Source of the DNA: Desulfobulbaceae bacterium
GTDB taxonomy: Bacteria > Desulfobacterota > Desulfobulbia > Desulfobulbales > SURF-16
Length of the DNA stretch: 63,371 nt
Assembly: GCA_002868945.1 (NCBI GenBank)
Contig: PKTX01000004.1
Location: forward strand, 127,425-190,795
Direction: 5' to 3'
Shown here: in pieces, positions 3,945-32,010 of the stretch
How positions within the stretch are numbered: the stretch's first letter is position 1
Layout: each line of letters starts with the position of its first letter
Made by a program: the position numbers and the translations under genes
The notes under the pieces: model-generated
The model's database searches: none
What the model saw: only the letters and a program-made list of their open reading frames with translations
What the model was told of the DNA's origin: nothing

Positions 3945-5831
3945 ATGAAACCGAACATAATAGACTACATGCGCGACAAGGTCCTGCTCGGTGACGGTGC
4001 CATCGGCACCTACCTCTACAGCAAGGGATTGGAACTGGGTAAGGATACCGAGCGCCTCAACCTCAGCGAACCGGAGTTGATCTACTCCATCCACGAGGAG
4101 TATATCCGGGCCGGCAGCCAACTTATTGAAACAAATACCTTTGGCGCCAACCGCTACAAGCTCTCGGAGTCTGGCCTTGATGCCAAGATCCGCGACATTA
4201 ATCTGGCCGGCGCTCAACTTGCCAAGCGGGCGGCAGGCAAGGATGTTTACGTGGCCGGCTCCATCGGCCCCTCCGGCATCGACTTCCCGCTCTCCACCGG
4301 CGACCTCAGCAGAGAGGGCCTCCAGGAGATCTTCGGCGAACAGATCGAGGTGCTGCTTGAGGGCGGCGTTGACCTGCTGCTCTTTGAAACATTCACCCAT
4401 CTGGATGAACTGGTGCTGGCCATTGAGACGGCCCGCACCATCAGCGATATCGCCATTGTCGCCCAGATGGCCTACCCCTCCGGCGGCAAGACCGCGGCCG
4501 GTGTCGATGCCCTGACCTGCGGCAAGGCGGCCATTGCCGCGGGCGCCGACGTGGTGGGCGGCAATTGCGGTCGTGGTGTCTCCTCCCTCTACACCGCCAT
4601 TGAGCACCTGGCCCCCCTGCATGACCAGGTGCCGCTCTCCGCCTTTCCCAATGCCGGTTTTCCGGAGATTGTCGGCCACCGCATGGTCTACCCGGCCGAA
4701 CCGGCCTACATGGTCAAGGCCCTGGCCGACATGATCAAGCTGGGGGCCCGTCTGGTGGGCGGTTGTTGCGGCACCACCCCCGTCCATATCCATGAATTTC
4801 AACAACATCTGAAGATCAAACGCCGTCCCCTGGTACGCTCCGCCGACATCCAGGGCGACGACAGCACCGCAACCAAGGCCCAACAGGACAACCACATCAA
4901 CGGCGCCCTGCTTGAGAGTCTGCCCGCCCACCGCCTGCCGGTTATTGTTGAACTGGATCCACCCACCCACCTGGCCGTGGATGGCGTCATTGAGGGGGCC
5001 AACGAGCTGAAAAAAAGCGGCGCCGACGCCATCTCCCTGGGGGAGAACCCCTTGGCCATCCTGCGGGCCGACAACCTGTCGCTTGCCCACCTCATCCACG
5101 AGAAGCTGGACATTCAGACCATCATCCACCTGACCTGCCGGGACCGCAACATCCTCGGCCTGCAATCGCAGATTATGGGTGCCCACCTGTTAGGGATCAG
5201 CGGCATCCTGGCCATCACCGGCGACCCGGCCACCTCCAGCGATCAGCCCGGCACCAGCGGCGTCTTTGACGTCAAGTCCTTTGGCCTGATCCGCATGATC
5301 GAGCTCTTCAACCAGGGCCGCAACCTGGCAGGCAAGGCCATGAAGGCCCGGACCAACTTCTCCATCGGCGGTGCTTTTTCCTTTCGACCCTCCCGGCCCG
5401 ATGTGCAGATCAGACGCCTGGAACGCAAGGCGGAACTGGGCCTGAAGTTTGTCATGACCCAGCCCATCTTTGATTCGGCCGAGATCGAAGAGATGATGGA
5501 GGCGGTGAGCCATCTCGACCTGCTCATCCTGCCCGGCATCTTCCCGCTCATCTCGGCCCGCAACGCCGACTTCCTCCACAACGAGGTGCCGGGCATCTCC
5601 ATTCCGGCTGCCTTGCGCAAAAAGCTGTGGCAGTATGACAAGGTGGAGGATCAGCGAAAATGCGCCCTGGACTACACCAGGCAGCTTATGGACAACGTCT
5701 CTGACTATGTGGATGGGCTCTACCTGATCAGCCCCTTGAACAAATGGGAGGTCACTGCCGAGCTCACCCGCGAGATTCGCGCGGCAAACTGGCAGGGCAG
5801 CGGCAGGGTCGGAAAATTTGTGAAGACATGA
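3945..5831 (+). CDS. Bifunctional homocysteine S-methyltransferase / methylenetetrahydrofolate reductase
   Basis: 628 aa fusion. Residues 1-300 are a Pfam S-methyl_trans (MetH N-terminal type) domain. Its zinc-binding cysteines are in GGNCGRG (about 205) and GGCCGTTP (about 271). From about residue 330 a MetF-type TIM barrel follows (IVELDPPTHL, ITGDPA, TQPIFD). The family links 5,10-methylene-THF reduction to methyl transfer, but the cobalamin-binding and activation domains of full MetH are absent. I chose ATG 3945 because it begins the conserved domain; the upstream open frame is low-complexity. The gene ends 123 bases from a convergent gene. Confidence 0.9.
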   Translation: MKPNIIDYMRDKVLLGDGAIGTYLYSKGLELGKDTERLNLSEPELIYSIHEEYIRAGSQLIETNTFGANRYKLSESGLDAKIRDINLAGAQLAKRAAGKDVYVAGSIGPSGIDFPLSTGDLSREGLQEIFGEQIEVLLEGGVDLLLFETFTHLDELVLAIETARTISDIAIVAQMAYPSGGKTAAGVDALTCGKAAIAAGADVVGGNCGRGVSSLYTAIEHLAPLHDQVPLSAFPNAGFPEIVGHRMVYPAEPAYMVKALADMIKLGARLVGGCCGTTPVHIHEFQQHLKIKRRPLVRSADIQGDDSTATKAQQDNHINGALLESLPAHRLPVIVELDPPTHLAVDGVIEGANELKKSGADAISLGENPLAILRADNLSLAHLIHEKLDIQTIIHLTCRDRNILGLQSQIMGAHLLGISGILAITGDPATSSDQPGTSGVFDVKSFGLIRMIELFNQGRNLAGKAMKARTNFSIGGAFSFRPSRPDVQIRRLERKAELGLKFVMTQPIFDSAEIEEMMEAVSHLDLLILPGIFPLISARNADFLHNEVPGISIPAALRKKLWQYDKVEDQRKCALDYTRQLMDNVSDYVDGLYLISPLNKWEVTAELTREIRAANWQGSGRVGKFVKT

Positions 5832-5832
5832 G

Positions 5833-5947
5833 GATTCAGGATTCAGAATGCAGAATACAGAATCGAAAAGGAGAGTTGTTAGCCAGCGCTCCATTGATGC
5901 GAGGCTTACCTTCTAAATTCTGACTTCTGCATTCTGAATCCTGAATT
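5833..5947. repeat. Inverted repeat between convergent genes
   Basis: The arm at 5833-5855 and the arm at 5925-5947 are reverse complements over 22 of 23 bases (core GATTCAGGATTCAGAATGC). They are separated by about 69 bases. The repeat fills the space between the MetH-MetF stop and the stop of the opposing gene. A GAATTC-like relative occurs at 59079-59117. It could act as a bidirectional terminator, although no T-tract is evident. Confidence 0.6.
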
Positions 5948-5954
5948 CTGATTT

Positions 5955-6239
5955 CTACTTTTCCAGCCACCCCTCAAGGGCGGCGATAATCTTGCGGGCC
6001 TGATCAGCGCTGGAGATATTGAACTTGCCCTGCGGTTTATACTCGCCGCTCATCTTGCGATAGCGTCTGATGGTGTAGCGATCCGGGCCATACTCCTCTT
6101 TTTTTTTGTCCCACTGCTGGTAGCGAAAAATAATGGTACTCCAGGCCCCTTTGGAGAGCACGACCTTGTCGATCTCCTTACAGACCAGCACACCGTCTTC
6201 TTCCCAGTTAATGGTCAATTCATCTATGGTTTCAGCCAT
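5955..6239 (-). CDS. Small conserved protein, possibly PC4/YdbC-like
   Basis: 94 aa, cytosolic, no signal peptide. The middle (SKGAWSTIIFRYQQWD, then YTIRRYRKM) followed by KFNISSADQARKIIAALEGW resembles the beta-sheet plus helix plan of PC4/YdbC-like single-strand nucleic-acid binders. That is a fold guess from pattern only. GGAAG lies 8 bases before the ATG. The gene is convergent with the MetH-MetF gene and appears to be a single-gene unit. Confidence 0.6.
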   Translation of the reverse strand: MAETIDELTINWEEDGVLVCKEIDKVVLSKGAWSTIIFRYQQWDKKKEEYGPDRYTIRRYRKMSGEYKPQGKFNISSADQARKIIAALEGWLEK

Positions 6240-6335
6240 TTTTCTTCCTTTGTCAAGTATTGCCCGGCACGGTGGGCGGCAACCTCACCGCAGTTACTTC
6301 CTTTAAAACAGAGCACCACCATACAAAATACCAAC

Positions 6336-8506: not shown

Positions 8507-9889
8507 ATGCCCCAAGAAGCCATCTTTGAAAACTATTTCTGCGACAACTGGAAGGATGTCATCGACAGGATGACCGAAGGCCTGATGCTGGTGGACACCA
8601 CCGGCAAAATCCTTTTTGTCAATTCCGCCATGGAAAACCTCCTCCTCTACTCCCGCCACGAGCTGGTGGGCCGGCGCTGCGATTTTCTGGAATGCGACGC
8701 CTGCCTGGACCAGCGTCAACAAAAGGGCAACAAGCATTGTGCCCTGTTTCGCAATGGTGATGTCCGCAACCTCAAATGCTCCTTCAAGCGCAAGGATGGC
8801 TCCCGGATCAATGTTCTTAAAAACGCCACCGTCCTTACCGACCCCAGCGGCAAGATGGTGGCCGGTGTCGAGAACCTCACCGACATGACGGACATCCTCA
8901 CCAAGGATCAAATGATCACTGATCTGCGCAACCACTTGAACCGGGATGACAGCTTCCTCGGCATCATCGGCAAAAGCCAGGCCATGAGCAAGGTCTTTGA
9001 CCTGGCAAAAAGCGCGGCACTCTCCGAGGCGCCGGTGGTTATTTACGGCGAAAGCGGCACCGGCAAGGAGCTGGTGGCCAGCGCCATCCACAACCTCAGC
9101 ACCAGAAAAGACAACTCCTTTATCAAGGTAAACTGCGCCGCCCTCAACGAGAACCTCCTGGAGAGCGAACTCTTCGGCCATGTCAAGGGGGCCTTTACCG
9201 GCGCCGAGCGTACCCGCATGGGACGCTTCGAGGCCGCCCACAACGGCTCCATCTTTCTCGATGAAATCGGCGACTTGCCCCTTTCCACCCAAACCAAGCT
9301 GCTGCGGGTCCTCCAGGAACAAGAGATTGAACGGGTCGGCGATCACCAGCCCATTGCCATTGATGTGCGGATCATTGCCGCCACCAACAAGGATCTCGGC
9401 AAACTGATGAAAGAGGGGAAATTCCGCGAGGATCTCTACTACCGCATCGGCGTTATTCCCATCACTCTACCGCCTCTGCGTGAACGCCATGCCGACGTGC
9501 CGCTGCTCATCGAGACCTTTATCGAACGGGCCCGCCTGAAAACCGGCAAGGAGATTAACGCCATTGACAAGGCGGCCCTTGACCTGATGATCTCCTACCC
9601 ATGGCCCGGCAATATCAGGGAACTGATCAACGTTATCGAGTACGCCTTTGTCATCTGCCCCGGCGGCACCATCACCCCGGAGCACCTCCCCCTCCACTTT
9701 ACCAATCCGCCCAGCAAAACAGACGACAGTTCATCGCCCGACAATGATCGGCGCCAGCTGCTGCTTGACACCCTGAAAAAGACCGGCGGCAACAAGTCCA
9801 AGGCGGCCCGCATCCTCGGTATCAGCCGTGTCACTTTGTGGAAACAACTCAAGAAATATGAGATTACCGTGGGCAAGGCCATCCACTGA
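8507..9889 (+). CDS. PAS-domain sigma-54-dependent transcriptional activator
   Basis: 460 aa. A PAS domain spans about residues 15-125 and carries an unusual cysteine set, CDFLECDACLDQ followed by HCALF, which might hold a metal, heme or redox switch. The AAA+ domain (145-385) has GESGTGKE, GAFTGAE, the Walker B motif IFLDEIGD and the FREDLYYRIGV arginine region, so it should activate sigma-54 polymerase. A Fis-type helix-turn-helix closes the protein (GNKSKAARILGISRVTLWKQL). It is divergent from the octaheme cytochrome across 350 bases containing a sigma-54 promoter and repeated sites, so that gene is the likely target. Confidence 0.9.
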   Translation: MPQEAIFENYFCDNWKDVIDRMTEGLMLVDTTGKILFVNSAMENLLLYSRHELVGRRCDFLECDACLDQRQQKGNKHCALFRNGDVRNLKCSFKRKDGSRINVLKNATVLTDPSGKMVAGVENLTDMTDILTKDQMITDLRNHLNRDDSFLGIIGKSQAMSKVFDLAKSAALSEAPVVIYGESGTGKELVASAIHNLSTRKDNSFIKVNCAALNENLLESELFGHVKGAFTGAERTRMGRFEAAHNGSIFLDEIGDLPLSTQTKLLRVLQEQEIERVGDHQPIAIDVRIIAATNKDLGKLMKEGKFREDLYYRIGVIPITLPPLRERHADVPLLIETFIERARLKTGKEINAIDKAALDLMISYPWPGNIRELINVIEYAFVICPGGTITPEHLPLHFTNPPSKTDDSSSPDNDRRQLLLDTLKKTGGNKSKAARILGISRVTLWKQLKKYEITVGKAIH

Positions 9890-28177: not shown

Positions 28178-28813
28178 TTAGTGCTGTCGCTTCCCGGCCT
28201 GCCCCAGCTTCCGCAGGGCCCTGTCGTGCCTGGTTGACAAAAGGAGCAGGGAAACAACGGCACCGAGCAAGGCCAGAAACATATCCCACTGGGTATCCCA
28301 CTCATCCCCCTGGCTGCCGAGGAACTCCGCAGAGGATTGCCCCGAGTCAAGGAGCGCCACCCACCACTCGACAAGCTCATAGAAGGCGCTGAAGGCCAGA
28401 CAGACGCAGAGCACCAGAAAAAAAAGCCACCTGCCCGCCACCAGGGGTGAACGACGCAACAAGATTTCCCGGGCGGCAATGGCCGGGATAAAGCCCTGGG
28501 CCAGATGACCGAGGCGATCATAATGATTGCGACTCAGATCAAAAAGCTCCTGAAACCACAAACCCGGCGGCACCCTGGCATAGGCATAATGGGCCCCAAC
28601 CAGAAGAATAACGGCATGCAGGGCAATAAGACGATAGAGCAGCATGGTCAACGGCAGCGAGCGACGACTGGCCAGCAGCAGTACAGCCACGACAATCACC
28701 GGAAAAGCTTCCAGAAACCAGACAAGCCGGTCAAAGGGTCGAATGGCCGACCAGACAAAAACCAGCACCACCGCTGCACTCAAAAAAACAAGCTCCCAAC
28801 GTTTCATATCCAT
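28178..28813 (-). CDS. YjdF-like (DUF2238) membrane protein
   Basis: 211 aa with about six membrane helices. The segments HYDRLGHLAQGFIPAIAARE and AFYELVEWW plus GDEWDTQWDM are the signature of the DUF2238/YjdF family, whose function is unknown. ATG 28813 is preferred; a longer TTG start would place it at 28846, and another ATG is at 28807. No partner gene is evident. Confidence 0.82.
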   Translation of the reverse strand: MDMKRWELVFLSAAVVLVFVWSAIRPFDRLVWFLEAFPVIVVAVLLLASRRSLPLTMLLYRLIALHAVILLVGAHYAYARVPPGLWFQELFDLSRNHYDRLGHLAQGFIPAIAAREILLRRSPLVAGRWLFFLVLCVCLAFSAFYELVEWWVALLDSGQSSAEFLGSQGDEWDTQWDMFLALLGAVVSLLLLSTRHDRALRKLGQAGKRQH

Positions 28814-29329
28814 GTCCCGGCAATCCAAGAGAGCCTCAACTTTCAAGAAATTTTTTAGCCTGCCGTAATGGTCTGATCATTTTATTCGACAGTGCCCTGT
28901 TTTGCCAACAATGCAGGGTGTAGCGCAGCAGGTGCACGACGATGCAGGGTGAGACTGTGGCAACTGCCGTGCCGCCCATTTTTCCTGCAAGAGCTGCCCT
29001 GAGCTTGTCAAAGGGGCGGAACAGCAAGATCTCCATGGTCAATGATGCCTCTTCCTGCTCTCTGGAGACGCTCAACGCATCCCCTTGCCATGTCGCGCGA
29101 CAAAAGGGCCAGTTGCTGGCTACTGCCTGCCCAGAAAATGGCTGATTTTACGCCCACGCCCCAAGGCCACAACAACAATTCTTCTTTTATTACAGAATGT
29201 TAGCAAACAAGGACTCCATGGCGCCATTCTTGCTTTCTTTCTATGGTAGATTTGGAGAAGAAATTCAGGCCGCAACTCAGAACCGGGGTGCCGGCAGTTT
29301 TGGGCGCCACAATCTTCACAAGGGTGTTT
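28814..29329. other. Intergenic with short repeats and a sigma-54 promoter
   Basis: Divergent spacer. Two AATGCAGGGTG-like direct repeats lie near 28911 and 28940, and a CCCTGAGCTTGTCAAAGGG REP-like palindrome is at about 28997-29015. A sigma-54 promoter at 29219-29234 faces the PilZ gene. No gene is supported. Confidence 0.5.
29219..29234 (+). promoter_or_regulatory. Sigma-54 promoter of the PilZ-PAS-AAA gene
   Basis: TGGCGCCATTCTTGCT has GG and GC separated by 10 bases and TTGC at -12. The start would be near 29245, giving a leader of about 85 bases. The sequence is a near match, but no experimental or clustering support is available. Confidence 0.65.
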
Positions 29330-31114
29330 ATGAAGAACAAAGATGAGCGTCGTCACTTCACAAGAATGCCTTTTCAGCTCAGCTTGAGGCTCCGCGAAAG
29401 TCAGAGCAACCTCACCTTTCCCGCCATCAGTACGGACATCCATGCCGCAGGCATCCAGATTGAAACGGACGCCCCCATGCTGCCGACCATGGATGTTGAT
29501 ATCTGGCCTGAGGATTATGGCCTGGATGCCCACTACGCTCCGGGTAAAATCTGCTGGGTCGTGCCACCCTCAAACGGCAACAGAAAACATCGCTGCGGTA
29601 TCAGTTTTAAACACCGTATCGACTGGCCCATTCCCCTGCAGGTTTTAACGGAAAGATACTCGACCTATCAGGGCGAAATAGCTCCCCCGCAATTCATTCT
29701 CGACAGTATTGTCGACGGTATTTACACCGTTGACAAGAACAAAAGGATTACCTCCTTCAATAAAGCCCTGGAACTGCTCACCGGCTGGTCGGCCAAAGAT
29801 GCCTTGGGCAAGACCTGCAGCGAGGTGTTCAAGACCAACTGCTGCGACAACAACTGTGTGCTGGCCGAGAGCGTTGCCAGCCAGCGGGCCGTTGAAAACC
29901 GCACCCTCTTTATCACCCACGCCAACGGCAAACGCATCGGCGTCACCATCAGCGCCACCCCCCTCTTTGACGAGGACAACAACGTGGTGGGCGGCGTCCA
30001 GGTCTTTCGCGGTGTCCAATCCCTGCTTGATCGCGCTGTGATTCTCGACAATATCAGTGAAGGGGTCTTTACGGTGGACACGGAGTGGCGCATCACCTCC
30101 TTTAACAAGGCGGCGGAACAGATAACCGGTCGCCTCTGTGATGAAGTGGTGGGCAAACCGTGCCATGAAATATTTCAGGCCAGCATCTGCGGCAAGTCAT
30201 GTGCCATTGCCGCAAGCATAAACAAGGGGCTGCCGGACAAGAATCGTTGTATTCACATCAAAAACATCGACGGCATCAACATTCCCATCAGCATCTGCGC
30301 CGCCCCCATGTATGACAGTAGCGGCAACCTGATCGGCGGTGTCGAGACCTTCCGGGACCTGCGCCCCAGCACAGAGCCGCAAAGCCACCAGTACAAACAG
30401 AGACGGGTGGGCGATATCATCACCAAAAGTCCGGCCATGAACATGGTCTTTGATATCCTGCCCAGCCTTGCGGAAAAGGATAAGAACATCCTCATTGTCG
30501 GTGAATCCGGCACCGGTAAACAGCTGGTCAGCCGAGCCATTCACAAGTTGAGCAGCAGAAAGGACGGTCCCTTTGTGGTGATTAAGTGCGGCACACTTAC
30601 CGACCCGCAGCTCAAGGAACAACTCTTTGGCCCCTCCACCATAAAAAACGGCATTGCCATCCCCAAGGGCGGCGAGCTCTTTGACTCCGCCAGAGGCGGC
30701 ATCCTCTTCCTTGACCAGATCGGCAAACCACCCCTGCCCACCCAGGTCAAGCTTCTGCAGCTCATGGAGCATGATCCGAGCGAAACCGATGTGCGAATTA
30801 TCGCCAGCTCGGCAACCGGCAGCGAGGACAAATCTTTTTACAAGCTCAATGTGGCCAAATTTGAAATGCCCCCCCTGCGTGAGCGGATCGATGATATCCA
30901 GCTTCTCATCGAGCATTTTCTGGAGGAGCTCAACCGCGAGAAGAAACGCGATGTCTGGGGCATCTCCGAAGAGGCCTTGCGTATTCTCATGGCCTATGAT
31001 TTTCCCGGCAATATCAGGGAACTGCAAAATATTGTCGAATATGCCTCCATCCTGTGCGGCAGCGGCATGATCCAGAGCCAGCACCTGCCGCCGGCCCTCA
31101 TTGACAACCAGTAA
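29330..31114 (+). CDS. PilZ-PAS-PAS protein with degenerate sigma-54 AAA+ domain
   Basis: 594 aa. The PilZ-like domain (5-105) has RRHFTR for the RxxxR motif and DIHAAG in place of D/NxSxxG, so c-di-GMP binding is plausible. Two PAS domains (about 120-350) carry cysteine clusters (CCDNNC; CGKSC). The AAA+ domain keeps Walker A (GESGTGKQ, about 390). GAFTGA is replaced by PSTIKNGIAIPKG, Walker B reads ILFLDQIG (Gln for Glu), the arginine region reads SFYKLNV, and no helix-turn-helix follows. It should not activate sigma-54 polymerase itself. The start is ATG 29330, just before PilZ, with GGGTG ahead. Confidence 0.8.
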   Translation: MKNKDERRHFTRMPFQLSLRLRESQSNLTFPAISTDIHAAGIQIETDAPMLPTMDVDIWPEDYGLDAHYAPGKICWVVPPSNGNRKHRCGISFKHRIDWPIPLQVLTERYSTYQGEIAPPQFILDSIVDGIYTVDKNKRITSFNKALELLTGWSAKDALGKTCSEVFKTNCCDNNCVLAESVASQRAVENRTLFITHANGKRIGVTISATPLFDEDNNVVGGVQVFRGVQSLLDRAVILDNISEGVFTVDTEWRITSFNKAAEQITGRLCDEVVGKPCHEIFQASICGKSCAIAASINKGLPDKNRCIHIKNIDGINIPISICAAPMYDSSGNLIGGVETFRDLRPSTEPQSHQYKQRRVGDIITKSPAMNMVFDILPSLAEKDKNILIVGESGTGKQLVSRAIHKLSSRKDGPFVVIKCGTLTDPQLKEQLFGPSTIKNGIAIPKGGELFDSARGGILFLDQIGKPPLPTQVKLLQLMEHDPSETDVRIIASSATGSEDKSFYKLNVAKFEMPPLRERIDDIQLLIEHFLEELNREKKRDVWGISEEALRILMAYDFPGNIRELQNIVEYASILCGSGMIQSQHLPPALIDNQ

Positions 31115-31161
31115 CATGGTGTCTTTTCGGCCGCGCAGCAGATCCTGCTGACCATGCGCCC

Positions 31162-32010
31162 TCAAACGGCGGCAAAGGCCTGGCGCACCTTGCCCTGCTC
31201 GTCCAACTTACAAGCCAGGGTGTGGGGATCATGGTAAAAGAGAAACCAGGCATCCCGGGCTGTCGCTTCCTTGAATATCTCCTCCTTGGCCGCCACCGAA
31301 TCCAGCGGAAAATTATCATAGGCCGTGATCCACAGGGGATTGGTATAGGCCGTATTGGGTAAAAGGTCGCCGCAGTGCAGGCCGACCTGACCGACGGAGT
31401 GGAACCACACCACCTGATGGCCGCGGGTATGGCCGCCGCTCAGTCGGCAGCGGATGCCGGGGACAATGTCGGCCTCGCCGTTGATCAGATTGAGATTCCT
31501 GCCCTCCTCAAGGCCCTGAAAGTTGACGGGCCAGTAGGTGCTGGCCGAGCGCCGGTTGGGGTGACGGATGTCGCGCCACTCCTTCTGCTGCATATGATGC
31601 ATGGCCATCGGAAAGGTGAGCTCCACCTCACCCGTCTCATTGTGCATGGTGATGCCACCGGCATGGTCAAAGTCTCCATGGGTGAGGATGACATGGTGGA
31701 TATCGTCACGAGTCAGGCCCAGGCGATCAAGCTCCGCCGGCAGATCCCAGGGTGCGCCCAGGCGAAAGATTTCCTTCTGTTTATCGCTCAGCTTGTTGCC
31801 CAGGCCGGTCTCGATCACGACATTGCCATGCGGGGTCCGAACAAGAATAGCCAGATCGGCAAGGGCCACATAGTTATCATCCGTGCAGGGCCATTTCCGG
31901 CGCCACAGCACCTTGGGCACCACACCGAACATGGAGCCGCCGTCAATCTCGAAACTGCCGCCCTGCAGCCAGTTTATCTGAAAATCGCCAAGGGTAAATG
32001 TCGTTGTCAT
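31162..32010 (-). CDS. Metallo-beta-lactamase-fold hydrolase
   Basis: 282 aa, cytosolic. The metal motif reads THGDFDHAGG, so the second histidine of HxHxDH is Asp. Downstream metal residues are visible in SGGHTRGHQV and LHCGDLLPNTAY. The layout resembles N-acyl homoserine lactonase-like and alkyl-sulfatase-unrelated single-domain hydrolases; the substrate is unknown. ATG 32010 has AGGAGAG upstream; a longer frame to 32115 lacks one. It is convergent with the PilZ gene. Confidence 0.8.
   Translation of the reverse strand: MTTTFTLGDFQINWLQGGSFEIDGGSMFGVVPKVLWRRKWPCTDDNYVALADLAILVRTPHGNVVIETGLGNKLSDKQKEIFRLGAPWDLPAELDRLGLTRDDIHHVILTHGDFDHAGGITMHNETGEVELTFPMAMHHMQQKEWRDIRHPNRRSASTYWPVNFQGLEEGRNLNLINGEADIVPGIRCRLSGGHTRGHQVVWFHSVGQVGLHCGDLLPNTAYTNPLWITAYDNFPLDSVAAKEEIFKEATARDAWFLFYHDPHTLACKLDEQGKVRQAFAAV

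Follow-up and report, generated by a model that had tools for sequence, protein, structure and literature searches.

The stretch of DNA analysed here, the window, comprises 63,371 nucleotides of a Desulfobulbaceae genome (contig PKTX01000004.1) and contains a gene for a protein with a PilZ domain, two PAS domains and a degenerate sigma-54-type AAA+ domain, to which we refer as the pseudo-activator. The features of the gene, its product and its upstream region are as follows.

29126-29149, plus strand: second conserved upstream block, a candidate enhancer site or second GG-N10-GC element (by conservation)
29219-29233, plus strand: predicted sigma-54 promoter, -24/-12, TGGC-N7-TTGC, core bases invariant in four species
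29330-31114, plus strand: coding sequence (open frame), 594 aa plus stop, PilZ-PAS-PAS-pseudo-AAA+ with no helix-turn-helix (HTH)
29345-29623, plus strand: PilZ domain, aa 6-98 (Pfam PF07238, 28.9 bits, cut-off 22.5)
29690-30022, plus strand: PAS1, aa 121-231, with C163, C172 and C176 (Pfam; best stretch 121-221)
30035-30367, plus strand: PAS2, aa 236-346, with C278, C287 and C291 (Pfam; best stretch 244-344)
30416-30859, plus strand: sigma-54 AAA+ core in degenerate form, aa 363-510, with Walker A preserved (Pfam, alignments)
30878-31108, plus strand: AAA lid, aa 517-593, with sensor II GNIREL intact (Pfam AAA_lid_14, alignment)

The Pfam matches and the conserved cysteine sets bear out the sequence-only reading of this gene, which had described a PilZ domain and two Cys-rich PAS domains joined to a sigma-54 AAA+ domain. 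The AAA+ core matches Sigma54_activat with 92.5 bits (cut-off 20.2), in a match that extends no further than position 120 of the 168 in the profile; the lid matches AAA_lid_14 with 92.7 bits (cut-off 27); and no HTH or other DNA-binding family is among the Pfam matches of the protein. Alignment of the orthologues from the four genomes of the genus (the genome of the window, G000, and G001, G002 and G003) places a common start at ATG 29330 and shows, in 4/4 orthologues, a C-x8-C-x3-C set in each PAS domain and, as the second motif of PilZ, DIHA[AGS]G, which has His for Ser; RxxxR is present at the PilZ N terminus. We take the c-di-GMP motifs of PilZ domains to be RxxxR and [D/N]xSxxG, and the DIHAAG of the pseudo-activator departs from the second. 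AlphaFold, run on six-row alignments, gave two models with mean pLDDT of 55.9 and 62.4, the confident part being the lid of the second, and we base no structural claim on them. No Rfam match was found in 28800-31300, and an antisense ORF of 322 aa (30197-31165, minus strand) was taken as mechanical, the reverse frame having stops in G003 and G002.

Lesions of the AAA+ core

The lesions were read from alignments with 16 relatives bearing the usual motifs and with three activators encoded in the window. Walker A was described as present in the sequence-only reading, and 4/4 orthologues retain it as GESGTGK. The further claims of that reading, that GAFTGA is absent and that Gln replaces the Walker B Glu, hold as well: the GAFTGA-type L1 loop is gone in 4/4, its place being taken by PSTIKNGIAI and variants (a substitution, not a deletion), and Walker B reads LFLDQ for LFLDE, with DQ in three of the four orthologues and AH in G002. 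Since the Walker B Asp is also lost in G002, ATP binding may be dispensable. Nine residues are missing between Walker B and sensor I, at what we take, from PspF, to be the loop-2 position; a second nine-residue gap lies directly before the FREDLYYR motif; and the ending of sensor I is lost. The FREDLYYR region had been called absent, which is right for its first Arg, lost in 4/4 (the Asp is also lost), and not for the motif as a whole, which is rewritten and ends in Lys in the window's protein and G001 and in Arg in G002 and G003. At the position that we assign, by assumed PspF numbering, to the 'glutamate switch', Asn is replaced by Lys in 4/4 orthologues (N419K). In PspF, this Asn is described as pairing with the Walker B Glu as the 'glutamate switch' (PMC4132715). 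All four orthologues end right behind the lid, with no C-terminal Fis-type HTH in Pfam or in the alignment, in line with the earlier statement that the HTH is missing.

Loop 1, the relay and the residue for hydrolysis were thus lost together, and the nucleotide-pocket residues and the lid were retained. The 11 canonical relatives share 102 invariant AAA/lid positions. All four orthologues preserve 58 of these, including P-loop, sensor II and lid residues; the other 44, including L1, Walker B, sensor I and R-finger positions, differ in one or more orthologues. We conclude that the pseudo-activator, judged by its sequence, descends from the sigma-54 AAA+ family but does not pass as a functional activator. 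With neither HTH nor loop 1, it should not itself drive sigma-54 polymerase, and the earlier claim that it could not remodel this polymerase by a known route is well supported by the lesions. The observation of a disarmed sigma-54 activator relative is thus confirmed, with details corrected.

The finding goes beyond chance, since the pseudo-activator stands alone in its genome. A profile search of the 3.7 Mb genome found 33 full-length sigma-54 AAA+ domains, of which 30 were covered by a motif check; pattern matches there numbered 30/30 for the R-finger motif, 27/30 for L1, 27/30 for Walker A and 28/30 for Walker B. No other uninterrupted gene has a sigma-54 match that is strong yet covers half the length, and four weak matches, at 22-28 bits, were taken to be other AAA+ proteins. 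A further sigma-54 activator gene (G000:C82:23703-24028) is split by a frame break and gives two overlapping partial matches. Likewise, of the 29, 26 and 26 sigma-54 matches in G001, G002 and G003, just one in each genome is of half length, and it is the orthologue.

Orthologues, selection and origin

Searches spanned 22 genomes of the family and 36 further genomes of the order. Orthologues with the same lesions and stop position are found in 4/4 genomes of the genus (those of G001, G002 and G003 are 79-83% identical to the window's protein) and in 0/18 other genomes of the family, by protein searches with thresholds of 1e-60 and 1e-120 and alignment of the PilZ-containing matches of these genomes. 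Two of the orthologues are also in named records, one a Desulfobulbaceae MAG and one a MAG labelled Pseudomonadota. The sequence-only reading had proposed a search for orthologues with the same lesions, and had held that orthologues with intact motifs would point to a recent pseudogene; this condition fails, since no orthologue is free of the lesions and those genes whose motifs are intact proved to be paralogues. Where contigs reach, neighbours are common to the four species: a DUF2238 protein upstream and, downstream, a metallo-beta-lactamase-fold protein, an M48 peptidase and what is presumably a UmuC-type polymerase. In G001 and G003, insertions of unrelated genes directly follow the orthologue (L065 8262-10276; L066, reverse strand, 4485-6266); the window and G002 lack them.

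Whole-protein dN/dS is 0.063-0.142 over six pairs, with dS near saturation and some values undefined. By domain, dN/dS is 0.04-0.10 for PAS1, 0.04-0.09 for PAS2, 0.03-0.17 for the lid, 0.10-0.17 for the AAA core and 0.07-0.29 for PilZ (one pair undefined). We conclude that the pseudo-activator is under purifying selection. The PAS domains and the lid are its best-kept parts, and the AAA core (57/147 variable columns) and PilZ (36/93) are the most variable, in counts that ignore the tree and leave out one C39-type relative that lacks PAS1 (G002_C19). By the same counts, which again ignore the tree, the AAA core is more variable than PAS in the pseudo-activator clade (Fisher p 0.0004); the sister clade, in which 33/148 AAA-core columns vary, shows no such difference (Fisher p 0.23). 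A core that changes faster at low dN/dS is one that is partly relaxed yet still constrained.

In a tree, the pseudo-activator clade is the sister of the C39-type activators, with support of 100/99; these are PilZ-PAS-PAS-AAA+-HTH proteins with intact motifs. The stem of the pseudo-activator clade has 1.06 changes per column and its tips 0.10-0.24, as compared with 0.10-0.32 for the tips of the sister clade; a long stem with ordinary tips is a burst of change followed by constraint. The sister clade takes in two genomes of another genus (g4), and the duplication may therefore predate the split of the two genera. Identity to the C39 type is 49% for PilZ, 65 and 64% for the PAS domains, 47% for the AAA core and 58% for the lid; PAS1 and PAS2 are 55 and 62% identical to those of a C76-type and 44 and 56% identical to those of a C69-type paralogue, paralogue types being assigned by match extent and alignment. 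The sequence-only reading had named as possible partners the activators at 8507 and 50819 of the window, whose AAA domains are 41 and 40% identical to that of the pseudo-activator; by sequence identity they are weaker candidates than the PilZ/PAS paralogues of the C39, C76 and C69 types, which are encoded elsewhere in the genome. The C39-type gene has an in-frame TAG in G000, lacks PAS1 in G002, is intact only in G003 and was not found in G001 (84% complete), and this unsteadiness across the genus means that it cannot be the sole obligate partner. The C69-type activator, which has several PAS domains, was found in 4/4 genomes of the genus, and the C76 type in G000 and G001.

Further observations concern the paralogues themselves. 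In G000 the C39-type gene (C39, minus strand) has a single TAG at the PAS2/AAA junction that splits the sensor half from the AAA+-HTH half; an ATG follows soon after in the downstream half (312-aa ORF), and the split gene may represent two separate proteins, a pseudogene or an error in the assembly. The gene was entered with X or N at the TAG in the alignment, dN/dS, tree and column counts. In G002 (C19:59957-61069), the loss of PAS1 is in frame. The C39-type 5' regions of G000, G003 and G002 share a conserved stem of ~20 bp with a loop pyrimidine run complementary to the downstream AAGGAGAAG ribosome site; the predicted fold as a whole has 8 doubly changed pairs, the reading frame seems to start at CTG, and the stem-loop is a possible RNA switch on translation. 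The C76-type activator of G000 (C76:31000-42000) has a GGDEF gene on one side and, on the other, genes for a multihaem cytochrome and an MtrB/PioB-type barrel, an arrangement that suggests c-di-GMP control of outer-surface electron transfer.

A conserved sigma-54 promoter sequence

Ahead of the gene lies a feature that the sequence-only reading had not described, a predicted sigma-54 promoter whose sequence is conserved. The TGGC-N7-TTGC element stands 111 (G000), 126 (G001), 117 (G003) and 252 (G002) bases upstream of the ATG, and its 8 core bases are invariant (8/8) in the four species against a background upstream column invariance of 26%, for a probability of ~2e-5 that ignores the choice of site. 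Each of the four genomes has one rpoN. The sigma-54 pattern has 13 matches across the window versus 5.5 expected; a single match is weak, and the case for the promoter rests on conservation. By the rule that we assume for the distance from the -12 element, transcription would start near 29245; this agrees with a start codon at 29330 but not with the ATG at 29243, which lies at about that point. Such an element is also present upstream of the C76-type gene; none was seen ahead of the C39-type gene of G000.

The second conserved block, ~80 bp upstream of the promoter, is the best-conserved 15-column upstream stretch (11/15 invariant) and may be an enhancer site or a second -24/-12 element. By eye, GG-N10-GC is present at 29139-29153 of the window in three of the four species. 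With up to 3 mismatches allowed, the block pattern has 42 matches in G000 versus 16 in a backwards control, and its only exact match is the gene's own copy. The block combined with the sigma-54 pattern has 8 matches in the four genomes (control 0), 3 at the pseudo-activator gene (G000, G001, G002) and 5 elsewhere; the copy in G003 differs and is missed by the pattern. We claim no regulon for the block.

A possible role in the sigma-54 network

Conserved lesions, retained sensors and a predicted sigma-54 promoter together indicate that the pseudo-activator is probably a sensing partner or brake, not dead weight. With the architecture, the shared lesions, the selection, the synteny and the conserved promoter sequence as observed, the reading that we prefer, at a probability of roughly 45%, is that a c-di-GMP- and redox-sensing pseudo-activator associates with an active paralogue and probably holds it back, as part of a feedback loop. 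It would have arisen when a gene for a PilZ-PAS-PAS-AAA+-Fis activator of sigma-54 was duplicated: one copy would have given up binding to DNA, contact with sigma-54 and the relay for hydrolysis, and would have been retained for the sensors, the P-loop and the lid. Transcription of the gene by sigma-54 polymerase would mean that the protein is made only when some activator of the genome fires. PilZ would sense c-di-GMP and the Cys-PAS domains redox, metal or another small signal; the protein would bind ATP and join an assembly with an active paralogue (C39-, C76- and C69-type proteins being the best candidates) through PAS and AAA contacts. There it would supply a subunit with neither the sigma-54-contacting loop nor a normal arginine finger, the activator would be restrained, and the outcome would be signal-gated, delayed negative feedback. 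Both the C39- and the C76-type paralogue have GGDEF (diguanylate cyclase) genes close by, which would fit a c-di-GMP link. We infer c-di-GMP binding, ATP binding, the partner, the mixed assembly and the negative sign. Against this reading stand the unsteady C39-type gene, the partly relaxed AAA core with the Walker B Asp lost in G002, the departure of DIHAAG from the second PilZ motif, the low confidence of the structure models and a record of just four species. The interpretation in the sequence-only reading is partly supported, the c-di-GMP-controlled partner or titrator role that it proposed being likewise an inferred one.

The negative sign draws on PspF, in which wild-type subunits alternating with GAFTGA-dead subunits (T86A) are insufficient for activation, and hydrolysis-dead E108Q subunits bind ATP ~30 times tighter and are still usable in mixed rings (PMC4132715). 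By analogy, a subunit with both types of defect and no first arginine finger should restrain a mixed ring. It is possible, though doubtful, that the pseudo-activator is a natural dead-motor subunit of sigma-54 activator rings, fixed in evolution, that senses c-di-GMP and redox or metal signals, is made on demand under sigma-54 and caps or disables the ring of a paralogue, the entire sensor set having become an anti-activator.

Rather unlikely is a stand-alone PilZ/PAS sensor or scaffold whose AAA remnant serves folding or dimerisation and whose partner is not a sigma-54 activator but a kinase, a cyclase or a component of motility or export. Such a role would fit a gene that sits alone among unrelated genes and a protein whose PAS domains and lid are kept better than its AAA core and PilZ; however, the P-loop and sensor II are unchanged in 4/4, the core is still at a dN/dS of 0.10-0.17, and the predicted promoter places the gene within the network of activators.

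As a precedent, FleT of Cereibacter (Rhodobacter) sphaeroides comes closest; it is a sigma-54 activator relative with no DNA-binding domain (PMC11999139), whose gene needs FleQ and RpoN2 and which hetero-oligomerises with FleQ, a DNA-binding paralogue (PMC11999139, PMC7277832). The sigma-54 dependence of that gene (PMC11999139) may have a counterpart here, the promoter sequence being conserved in 4/4. FleT, however, is a co-activator, with no PilZ/PAS and no dead motor relay described in the accessible text of these papers (PMC11999139, PMC7277832), and the pseudo-activator also lacks L1, the L2 position, the Walker B Glu and the first R-finger. A FleT-like co-activator, one that joins an active paralogue and changes its choice of target or activates it, would find a model in the shift of FleQ to class III promoters by this sigma-54-dependent protein that lacks a DNA-binding domain (PMC11999139) and in the tolerance of PspF rings for some E108Q subunits (PMC4132715). 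The pseudo-activator has lost the L1 loop too, and mixed wild-type/L1-dead (T86A) PspF was insufficient for activation (PMC4132715); we consider co-activation unlikely.

A similar loss of the L1 motif is described for NtrC of Caulobacter and Rhodobacter capsulatus, which regulates with no sigma-54 remodelling (PMC10274813). A sigma-70-type regulator of this kind is very improbable here, since GAFTGA-less NtrC acts at DNA, at sigma-70 promoters (PMC10274813), whereas the HTH is absent from every orthologue of the pseudo-activator, leaving no evident route of its own to DNA. A decaying pseudogene, suggested by the lost motifs that define the parent family and by the stop codon in the related C39-type gene of G000, is contradicted by an open frame in 4/4 species at synonymous near-saturation, dN/dS of 0.06-0.14, the same lesions and neighbours, and the conserved promoter.

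Other known systems can be compared with the pseudo-activator. The C39- and C76-type paralogues have the identical domain order, with 47-65% identity per domain for the C39 type, but retain GA[FY]TDA, DE, FREDLFYR and the HTH. Regulation of sigma-54 activators is known mostly from the input domains that they carry or from proteins unrelated to them (PspA, HrpV, FleN). VnfA1/VnfA3 and HrpR/HrpS, paralogous activators that form mixed complexes, offer a proposed likeness; these, however, are discussed as co-activating pairs, neither of which the accessible text of the source describes as catalytically dead (PMC9542535). The literature searched, with most subscription journals outside its coverage, yielded no pseudo-ATPase regulator of sigma-54 activators and no paper on a motor-dead, PilZ-linked activator relative. 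If the preferred reading is true, a paralogue stripped of the motor relay, with sensors and P-loop retained, would show how signals can enter the sigma-54 network with no new DNA-binding protein needed, and would offer a test, set up by nature, of the number of dead subunits that a ring can bear. c-di-GMP would further be connected with sigma-54 control in Desulfobulbaceae, in which an intact relative has a diguanylate cyclase gene and multihaem cytochrome/MtrB-type genes nearby.
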